The notes: generated from the letters alone by a model not told the origin. A stretch of DNA of 32,869 nucleotides from a virus (IMGVR_UViG_3300027534_000007:1-32869), one strand, 5' to 3'; positions 14,346-29,025 are shown, counted from the stretch's first letter. Made by a program: numbers and translations.

Positions 14346-15590
14346 TCAGCAGAGTCCGTATGCAGACTCCCTGATCTTGCCACCCAAGGTCTGGGACAAC
14401 TTAGGGAACATTCCTGGCTTGCCATGGAGTTGGCTCAACAGGTCGTCCAGAAGGTAGCTGTCAGCCAGGTCAGCCAGGATCTCCTTGTACTGCCAGCGAA
14501 CCCAATTGATGTTGTTGGGGTGTGCCTTGAACTCGTCATGGATGGTGACAAGCTCGAAGGGCTGGTACTGGAGCATCCCGTTGATGATCCGAGCGAGGTG
14601 CTCGAGGTGCTGTTGGCTCAGCTTCTGGAGGTTCTCTGGCGTGAGGTGAGGCATGATCACAACATCCGGGACAGTACTTCTCTCGTACTGCTGGACGTAG
14701 TACCCGGCCTTACCATAGGGCATGGAGACTTCTCTCTTGGCTCCCATGATGCGTTCGAGCATCTCGATCTCGATCCACGCTGCTGCCTGTTCTGCGATCT
14801 CCCGATCGTAGTTGCAGCGACGGTGCATGCTCCTCAGCACATAAGCATCGACACTGTGGGTGACGTTGGCTGCGTTGGACAGGCCAGACTTCGAGCCCTG
14901 GTTTTCGTAGAACTCGTAGCTGAAGGTGGCATGGTCCAGCTCATCCACTTCGATGCGTGCCTCGACCTTCTTCATGACCTTGATGCGAGCATCGAAGCCG
15001 TCAGGCATCACCCAGGCATGCTGTAGGGCATAGGGTTGCCAGCTGGCCAGGAGATCCTGGAGCAGCTCCCAAGCACCTGGTGCAATGATCTGAGCCGCCT
15101 CGTAGAACGCAGCCAGCTCTGGAGTCTCGTCACCGAACAGGTTCTTGGGCTCTGCCTTGGAGCCGTAGAAGCTGGTCATCAGGGCCTGCTTGGCATCCTT
15201 GCGGTCTACGACTAGGTTGCCACCCAGGATGCCATTCATGACCTCTGTGCAGGTCGTATAGGCATCGGCTCGGACATTGGGATCAACCAAGCCTGTAGCC
15301 GTGGCACCAGCCTCGCAGCCGGTGAGCACGGACATCATTTGAATGCCTGAGCAAGTGCCATCCACACCGACCAGATGGCCAGTAGGGATGCCTTGCTGTG
15401 CTTTCCTGATGGCTTGAACAGCCTTCTGATACAGCGGACCGGTGTCGGCCGACTGAGACATGTACTCCAGATCATCGAGATGTTCTGTGGTCCATGCCAT
15501 GCGCTCTTCGAAGGTCAGCTTGTCCAGTCCGTACTGGGTAGCCGCATCGATGAGTAGGTATTGATAGCCGCTATAAAACTGCATACCCAT
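14346..15590 (-). CDS. phage RNA polymerase large (catalytic) subunit, T7-like (N4 gp16 / RNAP2 type)
   Basis: The 414-residue protein carries the catalytic half of a T7-type single-subunit RNAP. Motif A is VGVDGTCSGIQ (D77 corresponds to T7 D537). Motif B has R130-x3-K134 and Y142-G143, with the spacing of T7 R627/K631/Y639. Motif C is HDEF (H351, D352; T7 has HDSF). The N-terminal region of T7 RNAP is missing and supplied by the separate subunit encoded at 16042-16947, as in N4 RNAPII. In N4 this enzyme transcribes middle genes with an ssDNA-binding helper. Two small genes separate the subunits here. Confidence 0.95.
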   Translation of the reverse strand: MGMQFYSGYQYLLIDAATQYGLDKLTFEERMAWTTEHLDDLEYMSQSADTGPLYQKAVQAIRKAQQGIPTGHLVGVDGTCSGIQMMSVLTGCEAGATATGLVDPNVRADAYTTCTEVMNGILGGNLVVDRKDAKQALMTSFYGSKAEPKNLFGDETPELAAFYEAAQIIAPGAWELLQDLLASWQPYALQHAWVMPDGFDARIKVMKKVEARIEVDELDHATFSYEFYENQGSKSGLSNAANVTHSVDAYVLRSMHRRCNYDREIAEQAAAWIEIEMLERIMGAKREVSMPYGKAGYYVQQYERSTVPDVVIMPHLTPENLQKLSQQHLEHLARIINGMLQYQPFELVTIHDEFKAHPNNINWVRWQYKEILADLADSYLLDDLLSQLHGKPGMFPKLSQTLGGKIRESAYGLC

Positions 15591-15836: not shown

Positions 15837-16045
15837 GAGACCCCCAATAGAAGTAAGGCAAGCTGAAATTCTTTTGGAATGTCTTCAAAATTTCTAGGAC
15901 TCCATGAACCGTCAGGGTGGACGTAATTCAAATTCCAGTCTTCTTCTGTGGAATAGACAAAGACACGAAAGTACTTGTTTTTTATGGCCGGATCTTCCCA
16001 GTCAGGCACTTCTATGAGCTGTTGGTTGTGCCACACGTAGATCAT
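15833..16045 (-). CDS. hypothetical 70-residue protein lodged between RNAP subunits
   Basis: Begins MIYVWHNQQLIEVPDWEDP; tryptophan- and aromatic-rich, with a hydrophobic C-terminus (EFQLALLLLGVS). The ATG overlaps the stop of RNAP subunit 1 and the stop overlaps the next start. Its size and style resemble the neighbouring 72-residue protein, so the two may be diverged duplicates, but I cannot show this by eye. Confidence 0.65.
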   Translation of the reverse strand: MIYVWHNQQLIEVPDWEDPAIKNKYFRVFVYSTEEDWNLNYVHPDGSWSPRNFEDIPKEFQLALLLLGVS

Positions 16046-16947
16046 GGAGCACCCGTCACGATCTCTTCATTGGCCAGCTCGAGCTGTGCTTTCTTGAAGG
16101 CAGTACCCTGAGTTGTGATGTGATAGCCCATGGCATAGATCCGGCCGCGTTTATCCACCTTGTGAGTGAGATAGAACTTGTTGCCTTGCTGTGCCATCAG
16201 ACTATAGAACTCATAGCTCTGACGCTTGAATGCGTTCCACTGATCCGTCTGTTCCTGGTCCTTGAGCTCGAAGGTAGGCTCTTCCTCAACGGTGCTGAGG
16301 AAGTCTGTATCGAGCTTCAATGCCACCTTGTTCATCAGGTTGAGGACATCTAGGCAGATGTCTCCGTCATGATGGTTGCCGGTGCCAAGGATCAAAGAAT
16401 CATTGTGAGTCAGGTAGCCTGAGCTGTAGTTGTGGGTCAACTCCAGTGGTTCACATACCATGGGTGGCAGGTACTGAGAGTTCTCGATGAAGTTGATGAG
16501 GGTCTCAGGAAGAGGTATCCGAGAGACCACCATCAGACTGGCCATCTTGTCCTCTTTGCTGATGTCGAAGGCATCTGTTAGACAGAGCACTGCCATTAAC
16601 TCAGCCACCGTGGTGATGGCTTCTGTTCTGTCAGAGAACTGAAGTCGTGATGCAACCTGAGCTGATACCGAGGTAAACAGTTCAGGCTTCTGCGAGTACG
16701 CAATACCTACGAAGATGTCCATGACTAGGGCCTGAACATCCAGGTTCTCAAGCTGGGCAATCCTCTTCATCTTGGATTCGTAGTACTGGCCAGCTTTGTA
16801 CTTCTCGACCAGCTCGACACCTTGAATCAGCTTGGCTTGCATCTCAGGATGACCTTCGATAGCTGTTCTGATCTTGGCGTCGATGTGCTTGCGGTTGTAT
16901 CTCTGCTCGTTCATCTCCTGGAGAACGATCTGTCTCATGGTTTCCAT
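16042..16947 (-). CDS. phage RNA polymerase small (N-terminal) subunit, T7-like (N4 gp15 / RNAP1 type)
   Basis: The 301-residue protein ends with THKVDKRGRIYAMGYHITTQ followed by GTAFKKAQLELA, matching the T/DxxGR region of T7 RNAP (DWRGRVYA...NPQG..), which contacts the RNA-DNA hybrid. The upstream 260 residues correspond to the middle part of the T7 enzyme. Together with the 14346-15590 product it would form the heterodimeric polymerase of N4-like phages. The chain stops about 20 residues after this motif, where the catalytic subunit takes over. It is second in the operon behind hairpin promoter A. Confidence 0.93.
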   Translation of the reverse strand: METMRQIVLQEMNEQRYNRKHIDAKIRTAIEGHPEMQAKLIQGVELVEKYKAGQYYESKMKRIAQLENLDVQALVMDIFVGIAYSQKPELFTSVSAQVASRLQFSDRTEAITTVAELMAVLCLTDAFDISKEDKMASLMVVSRIPLPETLINFIENSQYLPPMVCEPLELTHNYSSGYLTHNDSLILGTGNHHDGDICLDVLNLMNKVALKLDTDFLSTVEEEPTFELKDQEQTDQWNAFKRQSYEFYSLMAQQGNKFYLTHKVDKRGRIYAMGYHITTQGTAFKKAQLELANEEIVTGAP

Positions 16948-16957
16948 TGATGTCCTC

Positions 16958-17329
16958 CTAGGGGTTGTATTTGATGAGGTGCACTGGCTTCTTCAGCTGG
17001 TGCATGTAGTCGACCATGTGCTTGGTGCCATTAGACTGGCCATCCCAGAAGGCCAAGAGACCATCTGAGAAGTTGCCCATCTGGGTATTCCTGATGAACC
17101 CGGCACGTTTGCCCAGGCCATCCCAGTTGGCTGGGAACTTGTAGAGCTTGATCTTGTGCTCGGTAGCAAACTGAACAGCGAGTGCATCTGCACCCCGTGC
17201 CATGCCTGAGACGATGCTCAAGGCCTTGTCCTGGAACTCCAGGTCTGACATTGCGTACAGCACACGGGTCAAGAGCTCGTAGTCTGCGAAGCCTCTGCTC
17301 CCAGCCACGATCAGTTTGAATTCGTTCAT
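16958..17329 (-). CDS. SLOG-fold protein (DUF2493/YspA-like)
   Basis: Starting at the ATG at 17329 (GGAGA seven bases upstream), the 123-residue product begins MNEFKLIVAGSRGFADYELL. It has the GSRG nucleotide-binding loop and the second motif VSGMARGADALAVQFA of the SLOG superfamily, followed by FPANWDGLGKRAGFIRN. Such proteins are thought to bind or cleave nucleotide-derived ligands. Small SLOG proteins are common in phages with unknown function. It is the first gene behind hairpin promoter A and is co-transcribed with RNAP subunit 1. An in-frame ATG at 17341 adds four residues. Confidence 0.88.
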   Translation of the reverse strand: MNEFKLIVAGSRGFADYELLTRVLYAMSDLEFQDKALSIVSGMARGADALAVQFATEHKIKLYKFPANWDGLGKRAGFIRNTQMGNFSDGLLAFWDGQSNGTKHMVDYMHQLKKPVHLIKYNP

Positions 17330-17365
17330 TGGTTTCTCCATGTTCTGGCAACAGCGCCAGCCCAT

Positions 17366-17376
17366 GGCCGGAGGCC
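17366..17376 (-). promoter_or_regulatory. hairpin promoter A (virion-RNAP type) for the SLOG-RNAP operon
   Basis: The + strand carries CATGGCC-GGA-GGCC: a 4-bp stem with a three-base GGA loop. In N4 the virion RNAP recognises a small hairpin on the template strand (P2 has AAGC-GGA-GCTT) and starts about 11 bases downstream of the loop centre. The + strand is the template for leftward genes, so orientation fits, with a start near 17360. It sits 37 bases before the SLOG gene and just after a terminator. Confidence 0.75.
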
Positions 17377-17415
17377 GAGACATGCTGTTGACTGTCTTGG
17401 CTGCGGTAGGTGTGA

Positions 17416-17449
17416 GAAAAAAACACCACCACTCCCGAAGGAGTGATGG
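17416..17449 (-). terminator. rho-independent terminator with UUCG loop
   Basis: Read leftward: CCATCACTCC, loop TTCG, GGAGTGGTGG, then TGTTTTTTT. The ten-pair stem includes one G-U pair. It lies 14 bases after the stop of the gene ending at 17463 and just before hairpin promoter A, closing one early transcription unit before the next starts. Confidence 0.9.
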
Positions 17450-17462
17450 TTTGGGGCTGGGA

Positions 17463-17735
17463 TCAGTCCAGTGCGAAGCCCGAGGTATCAGCAGGCAGCG
17501 CCGACTGGTACTCGATCTCCAGCTTGCTGAGGATCTGAGCAGCGCGGCTCGGATCTTCGTTCAGCCAGGCGAGCAGTGCCTTCTCGTTGCCTTTGCTCTC
17601 TTTGAGAGGGATAGCACCGAGTTTCTTGCGGCCACCATTCTTGGCAGGCAAGTAGAAGTTGAGGAAGCCCTGTGCCTTCCAGTTGTCGTTGGAAGGGGTA
17701 GCAGTAGCTTTGGTTACAGCGTTTTCGAAGGCCAT
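17463..17735 (-). CDS. conserved early protein of N4-like phages (90 residues, gp14-like position)
   Basis: From the ATG at 17735 (GGAGAAATCTC before it) the product begins MAFENAVTKATATPSNDNWK and continues AQGFLNFYLPAKNGGRKKLGA. The W-K-x-x-G-F-x-N-F-Y-L-P pattern with GG(R)RKLGAIPLKES recurs in small phage proteins, in N4-like phages just upstream of the RNAP genes (from memory). Function unknown. It forms its own unit: hairpin promoter B, gene, strong terminator, which suggests high early expression. Confidence 0.78.
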   Translation of the reverse strand: MAFENAVTKATATPSNDNWKAQGFLNFYLPAKNGGRKKLGAIPLKESKGNEKALLAWLNEDPSRAAQILSKLEIEYQSALPADTSGFALD

Positions 17736-17781
17736 GAGATTTCTCCAGTAAGAAAGGATTGAGGCAGGATTTGCCAGTCCA

Positions 17782-17794
17782 TGGGCGGAGCCCA
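17782..17794 (-). promoter_or_regulatory. hairpin promoter B (virion-RNAP type)
   Basis: TGGGC-GGA-GCCCA on the + strand: a perfect 5-bp stem with a GGA loop, preceded by CA as in the other four (CATG... pattern). Predicted leftward start near 17777, about 40 bases before the gene at 17735. Confidence 0.78.
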
Positions 17795-17900
17795 AGAACC
17801 GGACAAGCGGCGTACTCCAAGAGTTGAAGGGCAGGCGAGGCTACCCGACAAGCTTGGCTATGAGCAGTGAGGGATTTGTGAAACCGAAGGCTTGACTTGG

Positions 17901-18053
17901 TTAGCCGCGCCATGCCAAGAGCACGCCGATACCAGCAAAGATGACAAGCACAGCGATGGTGCACAGAGCATCAGTCCATGCTTCTTTGCGAGCAGCCTTG
18001 GCTTCATCAGCTGGGCTGTAGGTGTATGTGGAAGAGGTGTTGAGACGGGTCAT
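17901..18053 (-). CDS. small early membrane protein (50 residues)
   Basis: The ATG at 18053 opens a 50-codon frame ending TAA at 17901. The N-terminal half is polar (MTRLNTSSTYTYSPADEAKA), the C-terminal half one transmembrane segment (CTIAVLVIFAGIGVLLAWRG). AAGAAAGA stands before the start. Small membrane proteins transcribed first after infection are often host-takeover or superinfection-exclusion factors; here this is only inference from position. Confidence 0.65.
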   Translation of the reverse strand: MTRLNTSSTYTYSPADEAKAARKEAWTDALCTIAVLVIFAGIGVLLAWRG

Positions 18054-18071
18054 TAGAGATCTTTCTTTGGT

Positions 18072-18299
18072 TTAAGCATGCGCGTGCACATGCCAATGAG
18101 TTTGGTTGAAATGAGATACAGGGTAGAAGACCGCACGAAGGCCATGAGCAAGGAGAGCAGAGGTTGCAATGAGCGCGGCATCATGGTCATAGGCCTTGTA
18201 AGTTATCTGTAAGGGAGTTGCTTCGAGCACCTTGTCGATGTGATCTTCAAGGTAGTAGGAGATGTGAAGAGGTGGATAGGTGGGATGAATCGAGGCCAT
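18072..18299 (-). CDS. hypothetical early protein (75 residues), histidine-rich end
   Basis: Begins MASIHPTYPPLHISYYLEDH at 18299 and ends with FNQTHWHVHAHA, a histidine-rich tail that might bind metal. There is no clear Shine-Dalgarno; a TTG at 18305 overlapping the upstream stop is another possible start and would allow coupling. No family was recognised. Confidence 0.6.
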   Translation of the reverse strand: MASIHPTYPPLHISYYLEDHIDKVLEATPLQITYKAYDHDAALIATSALLAHGLRAVFYPVSHFNQTHWHVHAHA

Positions 18300-18301
18300 G
18301 A

Positions 18302-18490
18302 TCAAATACTTTTGTAAATGGTTGAAAGGACAGTGTGGATTGGAAGGCTTTCGTCTTCCCCTTTTTCAATAAGAAGAGCGCGGATAGCACTAGAGTAGTT
18401 ACACACCTCATAGAAGGCTTTGTACTCTTCTTCAGTCTCAAAGGTGAAGGTGAAGCTGATTGGTGAGAAAGGTGGTTTTGTGACCAGCAT
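18302..18490 (-). CDS. hypothetical early protein (62 residues)
   Basis: Starts behind an AGGAG, eight bases upstream. The product has a beta-like first half (SFTFTFETEEEYKAFYEVC) and a helical second half. Together with the adjacent small genes it is in the unit behind hairpin promoter C. Function unknown. Confidence 0.65.
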   Translation of the reverse strand: MLVTKPPFSPISFTFTFETEEEYKAFYEVCNYSSAIRALLIEKGEDESLPIHTVLSTIYKSI

Positions 18491-18493
18491 GGT

Positions 18494-18646
18494 TTACTCC
18501 TGGTTTGGTTGAATGCAGTCCAGCCGAACGTATTCAGCAATGACTGTGGAAGGCACCAGACGCAGCAGACGAGCAGCTTCCAGTGGTGATAGCCCAGCCC
18601 GATAGGCTAGGTAGATGTTGGACATTTGATGGGGAGAAGGTTTCAT
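18494..18646 (-). CDS. small early HTH-like protein (50 residues)
   Basis: From the ATG at 18646 (GGAGA upstream) the product reads MKPSPHQMSNIYLAYRAGLS then PLEAARLLRLVPSTVIAEYV. The segment GLSPLEAARLLRLVPSTVIAEY looks like a helix-turn-helix. It is the first gene behind hairpin promoter C, so it may be an early transcription regulator. The frame is open further upstream to 18691, but this would start inside the promoter hairpin. Confidence 0.65.
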   Translation of the reverse strand: MKPSPHQMSNIYLAYRAGLSPLEAARLLRLVPSTVIAEYVRLDCIQPNQE

Positions 18647-18690
18647 AGATGTCTCCGATGTAGAACAGGACAGCTGTTCTTTCCATCCCA

Positions 18691-18703
18691 TGCGCGGAGC
18701 GCA
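18691..18703 (-). promoter_or_regulatory. hairpin promoter C (virion-RNAP type)
   Basis: TGCGC-GGA-GCGCA on the + strand, a perfect 5-bp stem with a GGA loop and the CATG left flank. The predicted leftward transcript starts near 18686 and would encode the four small genes from 18646 to 17901. Confidence 0.8.
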
Positions 18704-18839
18704 ACATATCGGTGATGTATCGGTTTGGGTTGTGACTTGGATGGAGGTAATGGGATGGAGGTTTGCAGTGATCTGATACCCAGATGCACGTAATCACTAT
18801 TACCCTGAGCTGAGTTGGTACTCAGTCCAGCCTCACACA

Positions 18840-18852
18840 TGCGAGGAGCGCA
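18840..18852 (-). promoter_or_regulatory. hairpin promoter D (virion-RNAP type, imperfect stem)
   Basis: TGCG-AGGAG-CGCA on the + strand, the same as hairpin C except that the loop-closing pair is lost (A facing G). The CATG flank is kept. No convincing gene lies between D and C, so D may be a weak or tandem promoter for the same unit, or give a short leader RNA. Confidence 0.6.
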
Positions 18853-18910
18853 TCTCTTTCTACTTGGTAATCTGACTATCTCTGATGTGTAAATGTGTAA
18901 TGTGTAAAGA

Positions 18911-18936
18911 CCTAAGCTCCCCGAAGGGAGCGAAGG
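18911..18936 (-). terminator. probable terminator after the first early gene, UUCG loop
   Basis: Read leftward: GCTCCC, loop TTCG, GGGAGC, extended by CCT/AGG pairs across a small internal loop, then TCTTTACAC. The T-tract is weak, but the position directly after the stop at 18938 and the shared UUCG loop support it. Confidence 0.6.
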
Positions 18937-18937
18937 T

Positions 18938-19153
18938 TTACTTGGTGACAGCAGTGAGTTGTTTCTCGGTGACTCGTTGTTCTTTGAGCATGAGATTCAT
19001 CTTTGCTTGACGTTGGATGCGAGCTTCGTCTGCGAAGGCACCGGCTGATTCTTCTGCCCAGGTGGACAGGTGAACAGCAGCATTGGCAGTCTTCTCGAGT
19101 GCGATGAAGTAGGAAGTGATAGCGGCGAACAGTTGCTTGAACATTGCGAACAT
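18938..19153 (-). CDS. first leftward early protein (71 residues)
   Basis: The start at 19153 follows AAGGAGTCTCC. The N-terminus (MFAMFKQLFAAITSYFIALE) is amphipathic or hydrophobic, and the rest is a long helix with many alanines and charged residues (SAGAFADEARIQRQAKMNLM). It may associate with the membrane or form oligomers. It is the sole gene behind hairpin promoter E and is followed by a terminator, so it would be among the first proteins made. No family could be named. Confidence 0.7.
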   Translation of the reverse strand: MFAMFKQLFAAITSYFIALEKTANAAVHLSTWAEESAGAFADEARIQRQAKMNLMLKEQRVTEKQLTAVTK

Positions 19154-19181
19154 GATGGAGACTCCTTGAGGTTAATGGATG

Positions 19182-19193
19182 GGGTACGTACCC
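19182..19193. repeat. 12-bp perfect palindrome in the leader of the first early gene
   Basis: GGGTACGTACCC lies between hairpin promoter E and the gene at 19153. In leftward RNA it would form a stem right at the 5' end. It could also be a protein-binding site, because it is a perfect DNA palindrome. Confidence 0.6.
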
Positions 19194-19200
19194 AATACAT

Positions 19201-19211
19201 GCGCGGAGCGC
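19201..19211 (-). promoter_or_regulatory. hairpin promoter E (virion-RNAP type)
   Basis: GCGC-GGA-GCGC on the + strand with the CATG flank (the outermost T-T does not pair). Predicted leftward start near 19195. It is the outermost promoter of the early region and precedes the gene at 19153 by about 48 bases. Confidence 0.78.
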
Positions 19212-19326
19212 TAATGGGGGGGGGGGTAGTTGGAGAAATCAGCCCAGGGGCTGATAGTCCTACCTTCGTACCCCTCTGCAAAAAATCCCAAAACCCCACT
19301 GCCTATTTTTTAAGCAGTATTTTCTG

Positions 19327-20708: not shown

Positions 20709-20917
20709 TGAACAACTTTGAGATTGGTTGCTACAGCGCCTTGTGCGCTTCTGTCATTGGTGGTTTTTGGGGAGTAGTCATTGCCCTCATTGATGTCCAA
20801 TGGGGTGTCTGTATTGGCTTTTCTCTGTTTTTGTTCTGTTACGTGATCCTGTACAACAACGCCAGGTATTCGGACGAAGAAATGGATGAGCATGAAAAGA
20901 GATTCAATGACGTTTGA
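20708..20917 (+). CDS. small two-pass membrane protein between packaging genes
   Basis: The ATG at 20708 shares its A with the stop of the previous gene. The 69 residues contain two hydrophobic segments (about 6-28 and 32-50) and an acidic tail (SDEEMDEHEKRF). Its 3' end overlaps the terminase start. A membrane protein in a packaging operon is unusual. It might act in lysis timing or superinfection exclusion, but nothing shows this directly. Confidence 0.7.
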   Translation: MNNFEIGCYSALCASVIGGFWGVVIALIDVQWGVCIGFSLFLFCYVILYNNARYSDEEMDEHEKRFNDV

Positions 20918-22520
20918 TCCTGTAGCAGAAGCACTGGCTCCGTGGAAGGTTGAGGATTATCTCAACGCCACGGATTACCAGCTCAATCCGAACTATGTGC
21001 CGAGTGAGTTTGCACTGGAGTTCGTGACGTTCATCAAGCTGGTCAATGGCCAGCAAGGTGAGGAGCACAAGACTCCGCTGGTTCACTACAGGATGCTCGA
21101 CACCCTGACCGAGGGTGGCAAGCGTGTGATCAACCTCTGTCACCGAGGTATTGCCAAGACCACGGTGATGGGTGAGTACCTGTTCCTGTTCATTGCCACC
21201 TATGGAGAGATCCCTGGTTTCGGTAGGTTGGACCTGGCGCTTTATGTGTCCGACTCGATCGAGAACGGTGTCAAGAACATGCGGAAGAACTTGGAGTTCC
21301 GCTGGGACAACAGCGACTTCTTGAAGCAGTACATCCCCGAGATCCGGTTCACCGACATCCGCTGGGAGTTCAAGAACGCTGACGGCAAGGTGTTTATCGT
21401 CAAGGGCTACGGTGCCAAGACCGGTGTCCGGGGTGCCAAGGAAATGGGTAAGCGTCCTCAGCTGGCGGTGCTCGATGACTTGATCTCCGATGAGGATGCA
21501 CGGTCGACCACGGTGATTGCTGCGGTGGAGGACACGGTTTACAAGGCAGTCAACTACGCCTTGCACCCGACCAAGAACATGATCATCTGGTCTGGCACAC
21601 CGTTCAATGCGAAGGATCCGCTGTACAAGGCAGTCGAGTCCGGAGCCTGGGCGGTCAACGTCTTCCCAGTGTGCGAGCAGTTTCCGTGCGAGCGATCGGA
21701 GTTCCGTGGCTCATGGCCTGATCGATTCACGTTTGACTACGTGAAGGAGCAGTACGACAACGCTGTGAAGCTGGGCAAGGTCGAGACGTTCAACCAGGAA
21801 CTGATGCTGCGAATCATGTCCGAAGAAGACAGAATGATTCAGGACGGCGACATTGGTTGGTACAAAATCGACGCTGTGCTGCGGAACAAGAGCAAGTTCA
21901 ACTTCTACATCACCACTGACTTTGCCACTTCGCTGAAGGACAAAGCCGACTTCTCGGTGATCAGTGTTTGGGCGTACAACAACGTGGGCGATTGGCTCTG
22001 GGTTGATGGAGTCTGCAAGCGCCAGCTCATGGACAAGAATATCGATGCACTCTTCCGACTTGCTCAACTCTACAAGCCCCAGTCCGTGGGTATTGAGGTT
22101 ACTGGTCAGCAGGGTGGATTCATCCAATGGATCCAGGGACAAATGTTGGACCGGAACATTTACTTCCCTCTTGCATCGGAAGGAAATGACAGCAAACCCG
22201 GAATCCGACCCAACACCAACAAGATGGTTCGTTTTAACACCGTGGTTCCTTTGTTCAAGGCACGCAAAGTCTTCTTCCCGATAGAACGGAAGCAGGAAGA
22301 TACAATGCTGGAAGCCATGAATGAACTGAGCCTGGTTTCTGTTTCTGGCTTCAGAAGTAAGCACGATGACTTCCTCGACACGATCTCGATGCTGTCGTCA
22401 CTTAATCCATGGAAACCATCGGAAGAAGCCCCAATGGTCGAATCAGGAAAAGGTGAGGGAATGTGGGACATCGATGTCGATGACTCTCCCATTGACCGAA
22501 TGGCGTCATACATCGTTTAA
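20886..22520 (+). CDS. terL: terminase large subunit (N4 gp68 type)
   Basis: The 544-residue packaging motor shows an N-terminal ATPase with Walker A CHRGIAKTT (85-93) and Walker B LAVLDDLI (193-200). The C-terminal RNase H-like nuclease has D345 (TTDFAT), E404 (GIEVTG) and D494/D495-D498 (KHDDFLD). It cuts concatemers and pumps DNA through the portal. Three in-frame ATGs (20886, 20892, 20907) are possible; all lie within the end of the upstream membrane-protein gene, so translation is coupled. No clear Shine-Dalgarno decides between them. Confidence 0.96.
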   Translation: MSMKRDSMTFDPVAEALAPWKVEDYLNATDYQLNPNYVPSEFALEFVTFIKLVNGQQGEEHKTPLVHYRMLDTLTEGGKRVINLCHRGIAKTTVMGEYLFLFIATYGEIPGFGRLDLALYVSDSIENGVKNMRKNLEFRWDNSDFLKQYIPEIRFTDIRWEFKNADGKVFIVKGYGAKTGVRGAKEMGKRPQLAVLDDLISDEDARSTTVIAAVEDTVYKAVNYALHPTKNMIIWSGTPFNAKDPLYKAVESGAWAVNVFPVCEQFPCERSEFRGSWPDRFTFDYVKEQYDNAVKLGKVETFNQELMLRIMSEEDRMIQDGDIGWYKIDAVLRNKSKFNFYITTDFATSLKDKADFSVISVWAYNNVGDWLWVDGVCKRQLMDKNIDALFRLAQLYKPQSVGIEVTGQQGGFIQWIQGQMLDRNIYFPLASEGNDSKPGIRPNTNKMVRFNTVVPLFKARKVFFPIERKQEDTMLEAMNELSLVSVSGFRSKHDDFLDTISMLSSLNPWKPSEEAPMVESGKGEGMWDIDVDDSPIDRMASYIV

Positions 22521-24076: not shown

Positions 24077-26245
24077 ATGAACCAACTGAACAAGACTTCG
24101 GAAGTGGAAACACCCCCACTCACCAATTGGAAAAACGCTCCGACTCTGGCAAACCTGAAACAGGATTTGCTGGATGCTCAGTCGGTGCACGATGCACAGG
24201 AAACCAAAATCAGCGAATGGCTGGACAACCTGAATGTCACAGGTAAAGCCAAGATCCAGACAGCCAAAGGCAACTCTGCGATCGTTCCTAAGCTGATCCG
24301 CAAGCAAGCCGAGTGGCGTTATGCCTCTCTGAGCGAGCCGTTCCTCAGCACCGACGACATCTTCAACGTCAAGCCTGTGACCTGGGAGGATCGCAATGCG
24401 GCTCACCAGAATCAGCTGGTTTTGAACCACCAGTTCAACACGGCGATCGACAAGGTTCGGTTCATTGACGAGTACGTCCGTGCTGCGGTGGATGAGGGCA
24501 CGGTGATCGTTCGGGTGGGCTGGGAGTTCATTGAAGAGGAGTACGTTGGCACCTTCCCCAAGGTCGAATTCAGGGTAAACCCTGAGTTGGCCCCATTGCA
24601 TGAGCACCTCCACCAGATGATGGAGGAGTCTCCCAGCGAGTACGAAACGGATGTTCCCGAGGAACTGAAGCAGGCTCACGAGCTGACGATGGAGCAGGGT
24701 CAGCCGATCGAGCCAGTGATCATCGGTGAGGTCGAGGAGAAACGGATTCGAACGGTGGCCAATCGGCCGACGCTGGAAGTCTGTGACTACCGCAACGTGA
24801 TCATCGATCCTACCTGCATGGGTGACATCGAGAAGGCTGGCTTCGTGGTTTACAGCTTTGAGTCTTCGCTTTCCCAGCTGGAGAAGGAAGGCAAGAAGTA
24901 CAAGAACCTGGACAAAATCAACATCTCGAACAGCTCGATCCTGGGTGTTCCGGACCACCATTCTTCGGATGGTTCCAAGACCTTCAACTTCAGCGACGAG
25001 CCCCGCAAGAAGTTTGTGGTCTACGAGTACTGGGGCTACTGGGACATCGACGGCACCGGCATCGTCAAGCCATTTGTTGCCGCCTGGGTAGGGAATACCC
25101 TGATCCGTCTGGAAGAGAACCCTTTCCCCGACAAGAAGATCCCGTTTGTTGTCGAGCAGTACCTGCCTGTGCGCAAAAGCACGTATGGCGAGCCAGATGG
25201 CGCTCTGCTGGAAGACAACCAAAAGGTCATTGGTGCGGTCACTCGAGGAATGATCGACATCATGGGTAAGTCGGCCAATGGCCAGACCGGTATCCGCAAG
25301 GACATGCTGGATACGACCAACAAACGCAAGTTCGACAAGGGCCAGGACTACGAGTTCAATGCCAACGTCGATCCTCGCCAGGGTGTGTTCATGCACACCT
25401 ACCCTGAGATCCCTGCATCGGCTCAGTTCATGCTGGGTTTGCAGAATCAGGAAGCCGAATCGCTGACTGGGGTGAAGTCCTACTCGGCTGGCGTCTCTGG
25501 CGCTTCCCTGGGCGATGTGGCTGCAGGCGTTCGTGGTGCTCTGGACGCTGCTTCCAAGCGCGAGCTCGGCATCCTGCGCCGGCTGTCGAACGGCATCATC
25601 AAGATCGGCCGCAAGATGATCAGCATGAACGCCGAGTTCTTGTCTGAGAAAGAGGTTGTCCGAGTCACCAACGACGAATTTGCCGTGGTTCACAAGGACG
25701 ATCTGCCTGGTCACTTCGATCTGCGCCTGTCGATCTCCACTGCAGAAGAGGACAACAACAAGGCTGAGCAGTTGGCTTTCCTTCTTCAGACCGTGGGTCC
25801 GAATTCAGACCCAGAAATGATGAAGATGATCCTGTCGGACATCGCCAAGCTGCGCAAAATGCCTGATTTGGCCAAGCGGATCGAGTCGTATCAGCCTCAA
25901 CCTGACCCATTGGCTCAGGAAGAAGCCCAATTGCGCATCGAATTGCTCAAAGCACAGATTGCCAAAGAGAATGCACTCGCAATGCAGCACCAATCTCAGG
26001 CTCAACTGGACATGGCCAAGGCTGGAACCGAGCAAGTCAAGCAAGGAAACATCCAATCCGACACCGACATCAAGAATCTGGACTTTGTTGAACAGGAATC
26101 GGGTGTAAAACAGGAACGGGCCAAGGAATTGCACGGTGAACAGGCCAGAAGCCAAGCTCAATTGAAGCTTATGGACCGCCAATTTGCGATAGAAGACCAA
26201 GATCGTGATCTTCTCAAAGAGTACTTGCTGAAAAAGAACCAATAA
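24077..26245 (+). CDS. portal protein (N4 gp59 type)
   Basis: A 722-residue portal protein, close to the usual N4-type length. It has an N-terminal acidic and helical part, a conserved core (LIRKQAEWRYASLSEPFLST near residue 75, RVNPELAPL, CDYRNVIIDPTC, EYWGYWDIDGTGIVKPFVAA) and a C-terminal glutamine- and alanine-rich helix (from about residue 615) that would form the crown coiled coil. The dodecameric portal is the DNA entry and exit gate and the nucleus of head assembly. The gene follows the dUTPase divergently and leads the capsid genes. Confidence 0.93.
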   Translation: MNQLNKTSEVETPPLTNWKNAPTLANLKQDLLDAQSVHDAQETKISEWLDNLNVTGKAKIQTAKGNSAIVPKLIRKQAEWRYASLSEPFLSTDDIFNVKPVTWEDRNAAHQNQLVLNHQFNTAIDKVRFIDEYVRAAVDEGTVIVRVGWEFIEEEYVGTFPKVEFRVNPELAPLHEHLHQMMEESPSEYETDVPEELKQAHELTMEQGQPIEPVIIGEVEEKRIRTVANRPTLEVCDYRNVIIDPTCMGDIEKAGFVVYSFESSLSQLEKEGKKYKNLDKINISNSSILGVPDHHSSDGSKTFNFSDEPRKKFVVYEYWGYWDIDGTGIVKPFVAAWVGNTLIRLEENPFPDKKIPFVVEQYLPVRKSTYGEPDGALLEDNQKVIGAVTRGMIDIMGKSANGQTGIRKDMLDTTNKRKFDKGQDYEFNANVDPRQGVFMHTYPEIPASAQFMLGLQNQEAESLTGVKSYSAGVSGASLGDVAAGVRGALDAASKRELGILRRLSNGIIKIGRKMISMNAEFLSEKEVVRVTNDEFAVVHKDDLPGHFDLRLSISTAEEDNNKAEQLAFLLQTVGPNSDPEMMKMILSDIAKLRKMPDLAKRIESYQPQPDPLAQEEAQLRIELLKAQIAKENALAMQHQSQAQLDMAKAGTEQVKQGNIQSDTDIKNLDFVEQESGVKQERAKELHGEQARSQAQLKLMDRQFAIEDQDRDLLKEYLLKKNQ

Positions 26246-27861: not shown

Positions 27862-29025
27862 ATGTCCATGCAATACAAAAACCCTCCTACCACCGCTTCG
27901 AGCGCTGGTCCTCAAATCAACACCCAGTACTACGAAAAGAAGGCCCTCATTGAGGCCCAAAAAGAGCAGTACTTCACCCAGCTGGCTGACGTTGCTTCCA
28001 TGCCCAAGAACATGGGCAAGAAGATCAAGCGTTACCACTACCTGCCTCTGCTCGATGACGCCAACATCAACGACCAGGGTATCGACGCTTCGGGCGCAAC
28101 CATCGCCAACGGTAACCTCTATGGTTCCAGCAAAGACATCGGCACCATCAGCGGCAAGATGCCTGCTCTGAGCGAGACCGGTGGTCGCGTAAACCGTGTT
28201 GGTTTCAAGCGTAAAGAGATCGAAGGCACTCTGGAGAAGTTTGGCTTCTTCGACGAGTACACCCAAGAGTCTTTGGACTTCGACACCGACGCGGATCTGA
28301 TGATGCACATCAACCGCGAGATGATCATGGGTGCCAACGAGATCACCGAAGACGCTCTGCAGATCGACTTGCTGAACGCCGCTGGTGTGATCAAGTACGC
28401 CGGTAACGCTACGTCGAACGCCACCATCGGTGCCGACGACATCGTGACCTACAGCGATCTGATGCGCTTGTCGATTGACCTCGACAACAACCGCACTCCC
28501 AAGCACACCAAGGTGATCACTGGTTCGCGCATGGTCGACACCAAGACCATTCCTTCCGCCCGTGTTGCCTACATCGGCTCTGAGTTGCTGCCTACCTTCA
28601 AAGCCATGAAGGATCTGCACAACAACGCCGCCTTCATCAGCGTTGAGAAGTACGCCGCTGGCGGTACGACTCTGGTTGGTGAAGTTGGTTCTGTCGATCA
28701 GTTCCGCCTGGTGGTGGTGCCTGAGATGATGAAGTGGGCCGGTGCTGGTGTGGCTGACGCTACCAACGCCACCTACGAAACCAACGGTCTGTGCGATGTG
28801 TTCCCGATCCTCGTGGTTGGTGACGAGTCGTTCACTACCATCGGTTTCCAAACCGATGGCAAGAGCGTGAAGTTCAAGATCACCCACAAGGCTCCTGGCG
28901 AGGCTACTGCCGACCGCACTGATCCTTACGGTGAGACCGGCTTCATGTCGATCAAGTGGTACTACGGTTTCATGGCTCTGCGTCCTGAGCGCATCGCCTT
29001 GATCAAGACCGCTGCCAAGCTGTAA
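27862..29025 (+). CDS. major capsid protein (N4 gp56 type)
   Basis: The 387-residue protein starts after AAGGATCACTACC and has the N4-family capsid pattern: a [17 protein letters not shown] helix near residues 22-38, the core [20 protein letters not shown], and the C-terminal [20 protein letters not shown]. It should adopt the HK97 fold of the head shell. Codon use is strongly biased to C-ending codons compared with neighbours, which fits very high expression. Confidence 0.94.

Follow-up and report, generated by a model that had tools for sequence, protein, structure and literature searches.

Spread over the leftward early genes of a viral genome fragment are short GC-rich hairpins with a GGA loop, which a sequence-only reading described as five promoters resembling those of the virion RNA polymerase (vRNAP) of phage N4. 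The question raised by this locus is whether these hairpins are such promoters and, if so, in what respects they depart from the N4 model. The window, i.e., the whole 32,869-base viral record that was analysed, is a fragment of a Schitoviridae (N4-like) phage, since it holds RNAP1 and RNAP2 in an N4-like gene order together with portal, terminase, and capsid genes (Table 1). Its gene order is that of LUZ7, and its portal is of the SU10 type. The contig ends within a gp53-like gene, the product of which is 84% identical to that of the closest relative (G001); for RNAP2 the corresponding identity is 93%. The early genes occupy positions 16958–19153, with RNAP1 on one side and the terminase on the other, and no sigma-70-like promoters were found in this early region, where 1.7 were expected. 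A family search with the product of the gene behind promoter C gave no match.

Table 1. Coordinates of the hairpin sites and surrounding genes; positions refer to the window unless a locus is named, and +1 positions are predicted.
Feature	Position	Strand or direction	Details
RNAP2, middle RNA polymerase second subunit	14346..15590	-	phrog_2051, E 2e-143
RNAP1, middle RNA polymerase first subunit	16042..16947	-	phrog_2166, E 4e-104
YspA-like SLOG protein (YAcAr), first gene behind promoter A	16958..17329	-	PF10686, E 3e-12
Promoter A (predicted)	17357..17376	+	CC 17357-17358; hairpin GGCC-GGA-GGCC 17366-17376; leftward +1 17358, 29 nt to start codon
Intrinsic terminator between promoter B unit and promoter A	17425..17450	-	11-pair stem and T run
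Gene behind promoter B	17463..17735	-	phrog_6271, E 1.4e-7, annotated 'toxin', host takeover category
Promoter B (predicted)	17774..17794	+	CC 17774-17775; hairpin TGGGC-GGA-GCCCA 17782-17794; leftward +1 17775, 40 nt to start codon
Gene behind promoter C	18494..18646	-	ORF with RBS-like sequence
Promoter C (predicted)	18683..18703	+	CC 18683-18684; hairpin TGCGC-GGA-GCGCA 18691-18703; leftward +1 18684, 38 nt to start codon
Site D, degenerate	18838..18853	+	ATGCG-AGGAG-CGCAT at 18839-18853
Gene behind promoter E	18938..19153	-	phrog_6483, E 1e-7
Promoter E (predicted)	19192..19211	+	CC 19192-19193; hairpin GCGC-GGA-GCGC 19201-19211; leftward +1 19193, 40 nt to start codon
Large terminase	20886-22520	rightward	
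Portal	24077-26245	rightward	
Capsid gene	27862-29025	rightward	98% identity to closest relative's homologue
G001 vRNAP ORF	L022 8585-19348		

Hairpin sites in the early region

Exact matches to CATGSSCGGAGSS were found on the + strand at 17363, 17780, 18689, and 19198, and a copy with one mismatch at 18838. The hairpins thus lie where the sequence-only reading had placed the starts of their stems, and four of them are perfect, while the fifth (18840; referred to as site D) turned out to be degenerate: it has an A where the C should close the loop, which leaves it a single base short of a perfect triloop hairpin of 6 bp, and the CC stands at 13 rather than at 12 as in the intact sites. Sites A, B, C, and E each form a perfect short inverted repeat with a 3-nt loop, upstream of an early gene. 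As had been proposed, the loop lies on the strand that is template for the leftward genes, and the four sites stand shortly before these genes, i.e., with 29–40 nt between the predicted start of transcription and the start codon and ca. 42–53 nt between the loop centre and the start codon. Promoter E is the outermost of the predicted early promoters, and a run of about ten G residues (19217–19226) is found immediately upstream of it.

All four intact sites read CGGAG, with a closing C:G pair, a 5′ G and a 3′ A in the loop, and a purine at –11, and all four carry a template-strand CCA, the A of which precedes the middle base of the loop by 12 nt. The –8 position is a G in B, C, and E and a C in A, and the stems of two of the four sites have just 4 perfect pairs. 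The conserved elements are the closing C:G pair, the G and A at the loop ends, and the CCA at a fixed distance. As to folding energy, the available DNA parameters do not favour the template strand, with both strands folding about equally.

Comparison with the hairpin promoters of N4 and with other systems

As a positive control, the same scan was run on the first 15 kb of N4 and recovered P1, P2, and P3 exactly (at 96, 565, and 4554). These precede gp1, gp2, and gp15 (RNAP1), respectively, and all have the hairpin on the template strand, a CCA, and a G-purine-A loop. In N4, promoter function requires the closing C:G pair, the 5′ G and 3′ A of the loop, a purine at –11, –10G, –8G, and +1C, with either purine allowed at –11 so that vRNAP tolerates the exchange of GGA and GAA (PMC4496689). 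The window sites share with P1–P3 the template-strand hairpin, the closing C:G pair, the GGA/GAA triloop, the CCA beside the hairpin, and the placement shortly before early genes and before RNAP1. They differ in that the CCA lies 12 nt from the loop centre (10 nt in N4), that the –8G needed in N4 is not kept, that the stems have 4–5 bp (5–7 in N4), and that four intact copies and one degenerate copy are present instead of three. Moreover, N4 P3 directly precedes RNAP1, whereas promoter A leads to RNAP1 and RNAP2 via one small gene.

Predicted early promoters with a 4–5 bp stem and a 3-nt loop have been described for the early genes of the Migulavirinae LUZ7, LIT1, and PEV2, as well as DEV (PMC3715699). 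Like the window sites, these have CC at 12, but in LUZ7 and DEV the middle position of the loop is taken by T or A (GTA, GAA) as opposed to G in the window, and RNAP2 is only 47% identical to that of the window. The stem-loop promoters of Pectobacterium phage CB3 (Cbunavirus), annotated by their depositors as N4-like (PMC6027278), likewise consist of a C:G-closed hairpin before early genes, but with a TAT loop. Finally, d(GNA) triloops, which favour closure by a C:G pair, make exceptionally stable DNA hairpins (PMC5815330), and the cGGAg loops of the window belong to this d(GNA) class, the members of which are known as folding motifs in vitro.

The identification as N4-type vRNAP promoters is supported by the N4-like nature of the phage, the recovery of P1–P3 by the same scan, the compensatory changes in the stems, and the presence of a vRNAP in the nearest relatives (see below for the latter two). 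In all likelihood, then, the four intact sites serve as early promoters for a T7-like vRNAP of the Schitoviridae type that is encapsidated in the virion and injected with the DNA. In N4, the incoming DNA becomes supercoiled through gyrase, the repeats are extruded, the non-template side is opened by SSB, and vRNAP binds the template-strand hairpin and begins transcription at CC (PMC4496689). By the same route, host gyrase would supercoil the incoming DNA of the window phage, upon which the short GC-rich inverted repeats would extrude as hairpins and SSB would open the non-template side. The vRNAP would then bind the template-strand mini-hairpin through its closing C:G pair and the G and A loop ends, and would start opposite the template CC at a fixed distance from the hairpin, yielding leftward RNAs that begin with GG and encode the early genes and the middle polymerase RNAP1/RNAP2. 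For the window sites we thus infer extrusion, vRNAP binding, the exact +1, and early transcription that is resistant to rifampicin. Counting against this promoter reading are the –8G in only three of four sites, the CC two bases further away than in N4, and the two stems of 4 pairs.

Conservation in related phages

Related loci were fetched in two rounds, i.e., fifteen with close relatives of RNAP2 and then 80 from a broader search that partly returned the same contigs. Within the clade of the window, four hairpins (five in L008) recur on the template strand of every triloop genome with good coverage, in an unchanged order, and the stems differ between genomes while their pairing is kept. Orthologues of promoter A are present in L005, L007–L010, L012, L014, and L018, and the interval of site D holds an intact hairpin in L008 and L014. 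In the closest relative (L005), GAA replaces GGA in three of four sites, which is the same exchange that the N4 vRNAP tolerates. The –8 position is G, C, or A in the relatives, and the CCA spacing is 11 nt in the L009 group (L009, L010, L012, and L018).

Two further tests were designed to avoid circularity. A search for CCA-N8/9-CGRAG that ignored stems yielded 41 matches on the early template strand, 37 of which have stems, versus 16 elsewhere, none of which has one. In the second test, loci were chosen solely by the transcribed leader (13 nt) of site B. All 18 loci selected in this way show a hairpin, with 4 bp or more, at an offset of 10–12, with stems that vary (TGGGC, GCGC, CGCCC, TTTGGGC, and ATGGCC, among others) and with GGA, GAA, GTA, GGTA, or GTAA as loop.

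Two features that had been thought distinctive did not hold up. The CATG that was to mark a separate promoter class is not conserved, being absent at the orthologous promoters of L009, L010, L011, L012, and L018 and at several sites of L007 and L013; it was rejected as a consensus element because it falls in the stem and spacer, which vary. The set of five reduces to four intact copies, and four promoters are usual in the clade. What is new in the window with respect to N4 is the 12-nt spacing and the loss of –8G (these, rather than CATG, being the real differences), together with the four copies, the kind of promoter itself being known.

On the opposite (gene) strand, conserved C-GGA-G hairpins with CC at 9 were noticed in L009 (6134/8300), L010 (6136/8281), L018 (6117/8272), and L008 (2316), which may be promoters facing the other way or a coding motif that arose by chance.

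Alternative explanations

The hairpins might instead act in RNA, as terminators or 5′-UTR structures of the leftward transcripts, since they are GC-rich inverted repeats located close to gene ends and the degenerate copy, site D, was picked out as terminator-like on the + strand. However, a T run is absent after all four intact sites, a separate and strong terminator (17450–17425) already divides unit B from unit A, and the conserved CCA is not within the hairpin but on its downstream side. Moreover, the CGGAG/CGAAG loop class is strand-specific, with 65 occurrences on the template strand versus at most 12 on the other, and we consider such an RNA role very improbable.

It is equally hard to maintain that the sites are bound as duplex DNA by a phage or host protein, i.e., as operators or replication elements. 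Several like inverted repeats upstream of genes are what common operators look like, but the stems vary freely with their pairing kept, which fits a reading of structure rather than of duplex bases; furthermore, the invariant part corresponds to the vRNAP contacts known from N4, and the orientation to the gene is constant.

The earlier suggestion to compare pattern counts with shuffled sequence gave a split answer, as the loose 13-mer with up to two mismatches is not above chance (11 found versus 8.8 expected), whereas the complete motif (hairpin with C-GRA-G loop and CCA at 12) occurs four times on the + strand and never on the other, against 0.027 on average, and never more than 1, in 300 dinucleotide shuffles. 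With the full motif so far above expectation and its orthologous places conserved in over ten related loci, the possibility that a short GC-rich motif simply arose by chance in a phage that is itself rich in GC can practically be dismissed; only the loose count speaks for it.

Predicted transcripts

If the four intact sites function as vRNAP promoters, their transcripts should begin with GG. The base adjoining the CC is an A in 159 of 181 sites of the family, and a 5′-terminal stem of at least 3 bp can form in 90 of the 181 predicted transcripts versus 14% of random GG positions, orthologous sites not being independent in this count. Both the adjoining A and the excess of 5′ stems agree with the CC being the start.

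The predicted early RNAs tend to open with a 5′-terminal stem-loop (GGCAAAUCCUGCC, GGGUACGUACCC), examples in the window being 17358–17347, 17775–17763, and 19193–19182, and the N4 P1 RNA likewise has one. We conjecture that this stem helps to release or protect the RNA.

Virion RNA polymerase of the relatives

The window ends before the expected position of a vRNAP gene, which was seen in six relatives including the closest one, where an ORF of 3,588 aa starts ca. 2.6 kb past the end of the gp53-like gene. The refuting observation named beforehand, the lack of a giant T7-like RNAP gene, was not borne out in these relatives. The vRNAP ORFs of G001, G002, G003, G004, G005, and G009 span 3,438–3,707 aa, are free of cysteine, and contain the catalytic residues of N4 vRNAP. 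A Pfam search with the G001 vRNAP gave no match, despite which homology was settled by a PDB profile search: the polymerase-domain profile (G001, G002, G003, LUZ7, and DEV) matches the N4 vRNAP structures 2po4, 3c2p, and 3c3l at an E value of ca. 3e-30. At an identity of 15–17% the alignment is weak, and the N4 contact residues K114, R119, D901, and R904 could not be mapped onto the vRNAPs of the relatives; N4 W129 aligns to Y or F in most of them, which at this identity is suggestive only.

In LUZ7 versus DEV, RNAP2 and the vRNAP domain are 70% and 73% identical, respectively, and 68% and 72% in N4 versus IME11. Among the G001, G002, G003, and G004 groups, by comparison, RNAP2 (taken from L005, L006, L008, and L010) is 69–83% identical and the vRNAP polymerase domain 25–37%, with the C-terminal part of the vRNAP being less diverged than the polymerase domain in the window clade. 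This suggests that the polymerase domain has been replaced or is changing very fast in this clade. Such divergence could drive the changes in the promoters, the correlation being drawn from few genomes.

At the position of N4 Y678, equivalent to T7 RNAP Y639 by the YGS motif, the vRNAPs of G001, G003 (L032), G004 (L033), G005 (L036), G009 (L035), LUZ7 (L021), and DEV (L051) have a phenylalanine, and those of N4, IME11, PB119, KpCHEMY26, and G002 a tyrosine. In T7 RNAP, Y639 excludes dNTPs, and the natural Y-to-F change might relax sugar discrimination.

Loop classes across the family

At least three hairpins of one motif and spacing were found on the template strand in 48 of the 94 early regions surveyed. 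The same survey detected such groups in 2 of 94 regions on the gene strand, in 1 of 76 and 0 of 76 downstream control regions, and in none of 470 shuffles. The loops are specific to lineages: GRA in the window clade and N4, GTA in L069–L073 (GTA with GAA in LUZ7 and DEV), GCA in L077 and L123, GNNA tetraloops in L006/L058, L011/L062, L079, L080, and L115, and gCNNGc in L084. DNA tetraloops of the cGNNAg and gCNNGc types are specially stable. At sites found in close relatives, GG[TC]A tetraloops replace the triloops in L006 (L058; 5536–7950) and L011 (L062; 6805–8535). The CC spacing is 12 in most lineages, 11 in the L009 group, and 10 in N4, IME11, and KpCHEMY26.

To account for the tetraloop class on the RNAP2 tree takes five separate changes, each imposed by branches with good support. 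L079, with a tetraloop, is the sister of L081, with a triloop, and the tetraloop-bearing L058 is nested within the window's own four-member group. A group of three like sites was not found in 41 of the 85 loci on the tree, some of which have short early regions and some of which are distant phages, so that the rule is supported for part of the family.

On balance, we lean towards regarding the vRNAP promoters of Schitoviridae as a class defined by shape, in which each lineage would use one mini-hairpin loop (cGRAg, cGTAg, cGCAg, cGNNAg, or gCNNGc) and a fixed CC distance (10, 11, or 12), and in which the promoters of a genome would all have switched loop class at once, on repeated occasions, in parallel with a vRNAP polymerase domain that was rapidly replaced or diverging. 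As part of that reading, the tetraloop and pyrimidine-centred classes would depart from the N4 rule, under which the loop has three bases and a purine at –11. The literature searched yielded no report of tetraloop vRNAP promoters and no account of loop switching between lineages, and a roseophage paper reports having found no promoter consensus (PMC4193335).

Implications

Detailed work on hairpin recognition by the N4 vRNAP rests on one phage, and the window clade offers natural variants of it, i.e., with a longer start-site ruler and with the –8G contact lost. Of more interest than the window's own variant is the loop switching seen more widely: in relatives that are 74–79% identical in RNAP2, tetraloops have completely taken the place of triloops at corresponding sites. 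Since several vRNAP types are sequenced, both the reading of loop and shape and a joint change of polymerase and promoter specificity become testable in vitro on oligonucleotide templates, and the motif provides a simple annotation rule for early promoters in many N4-like genomes.
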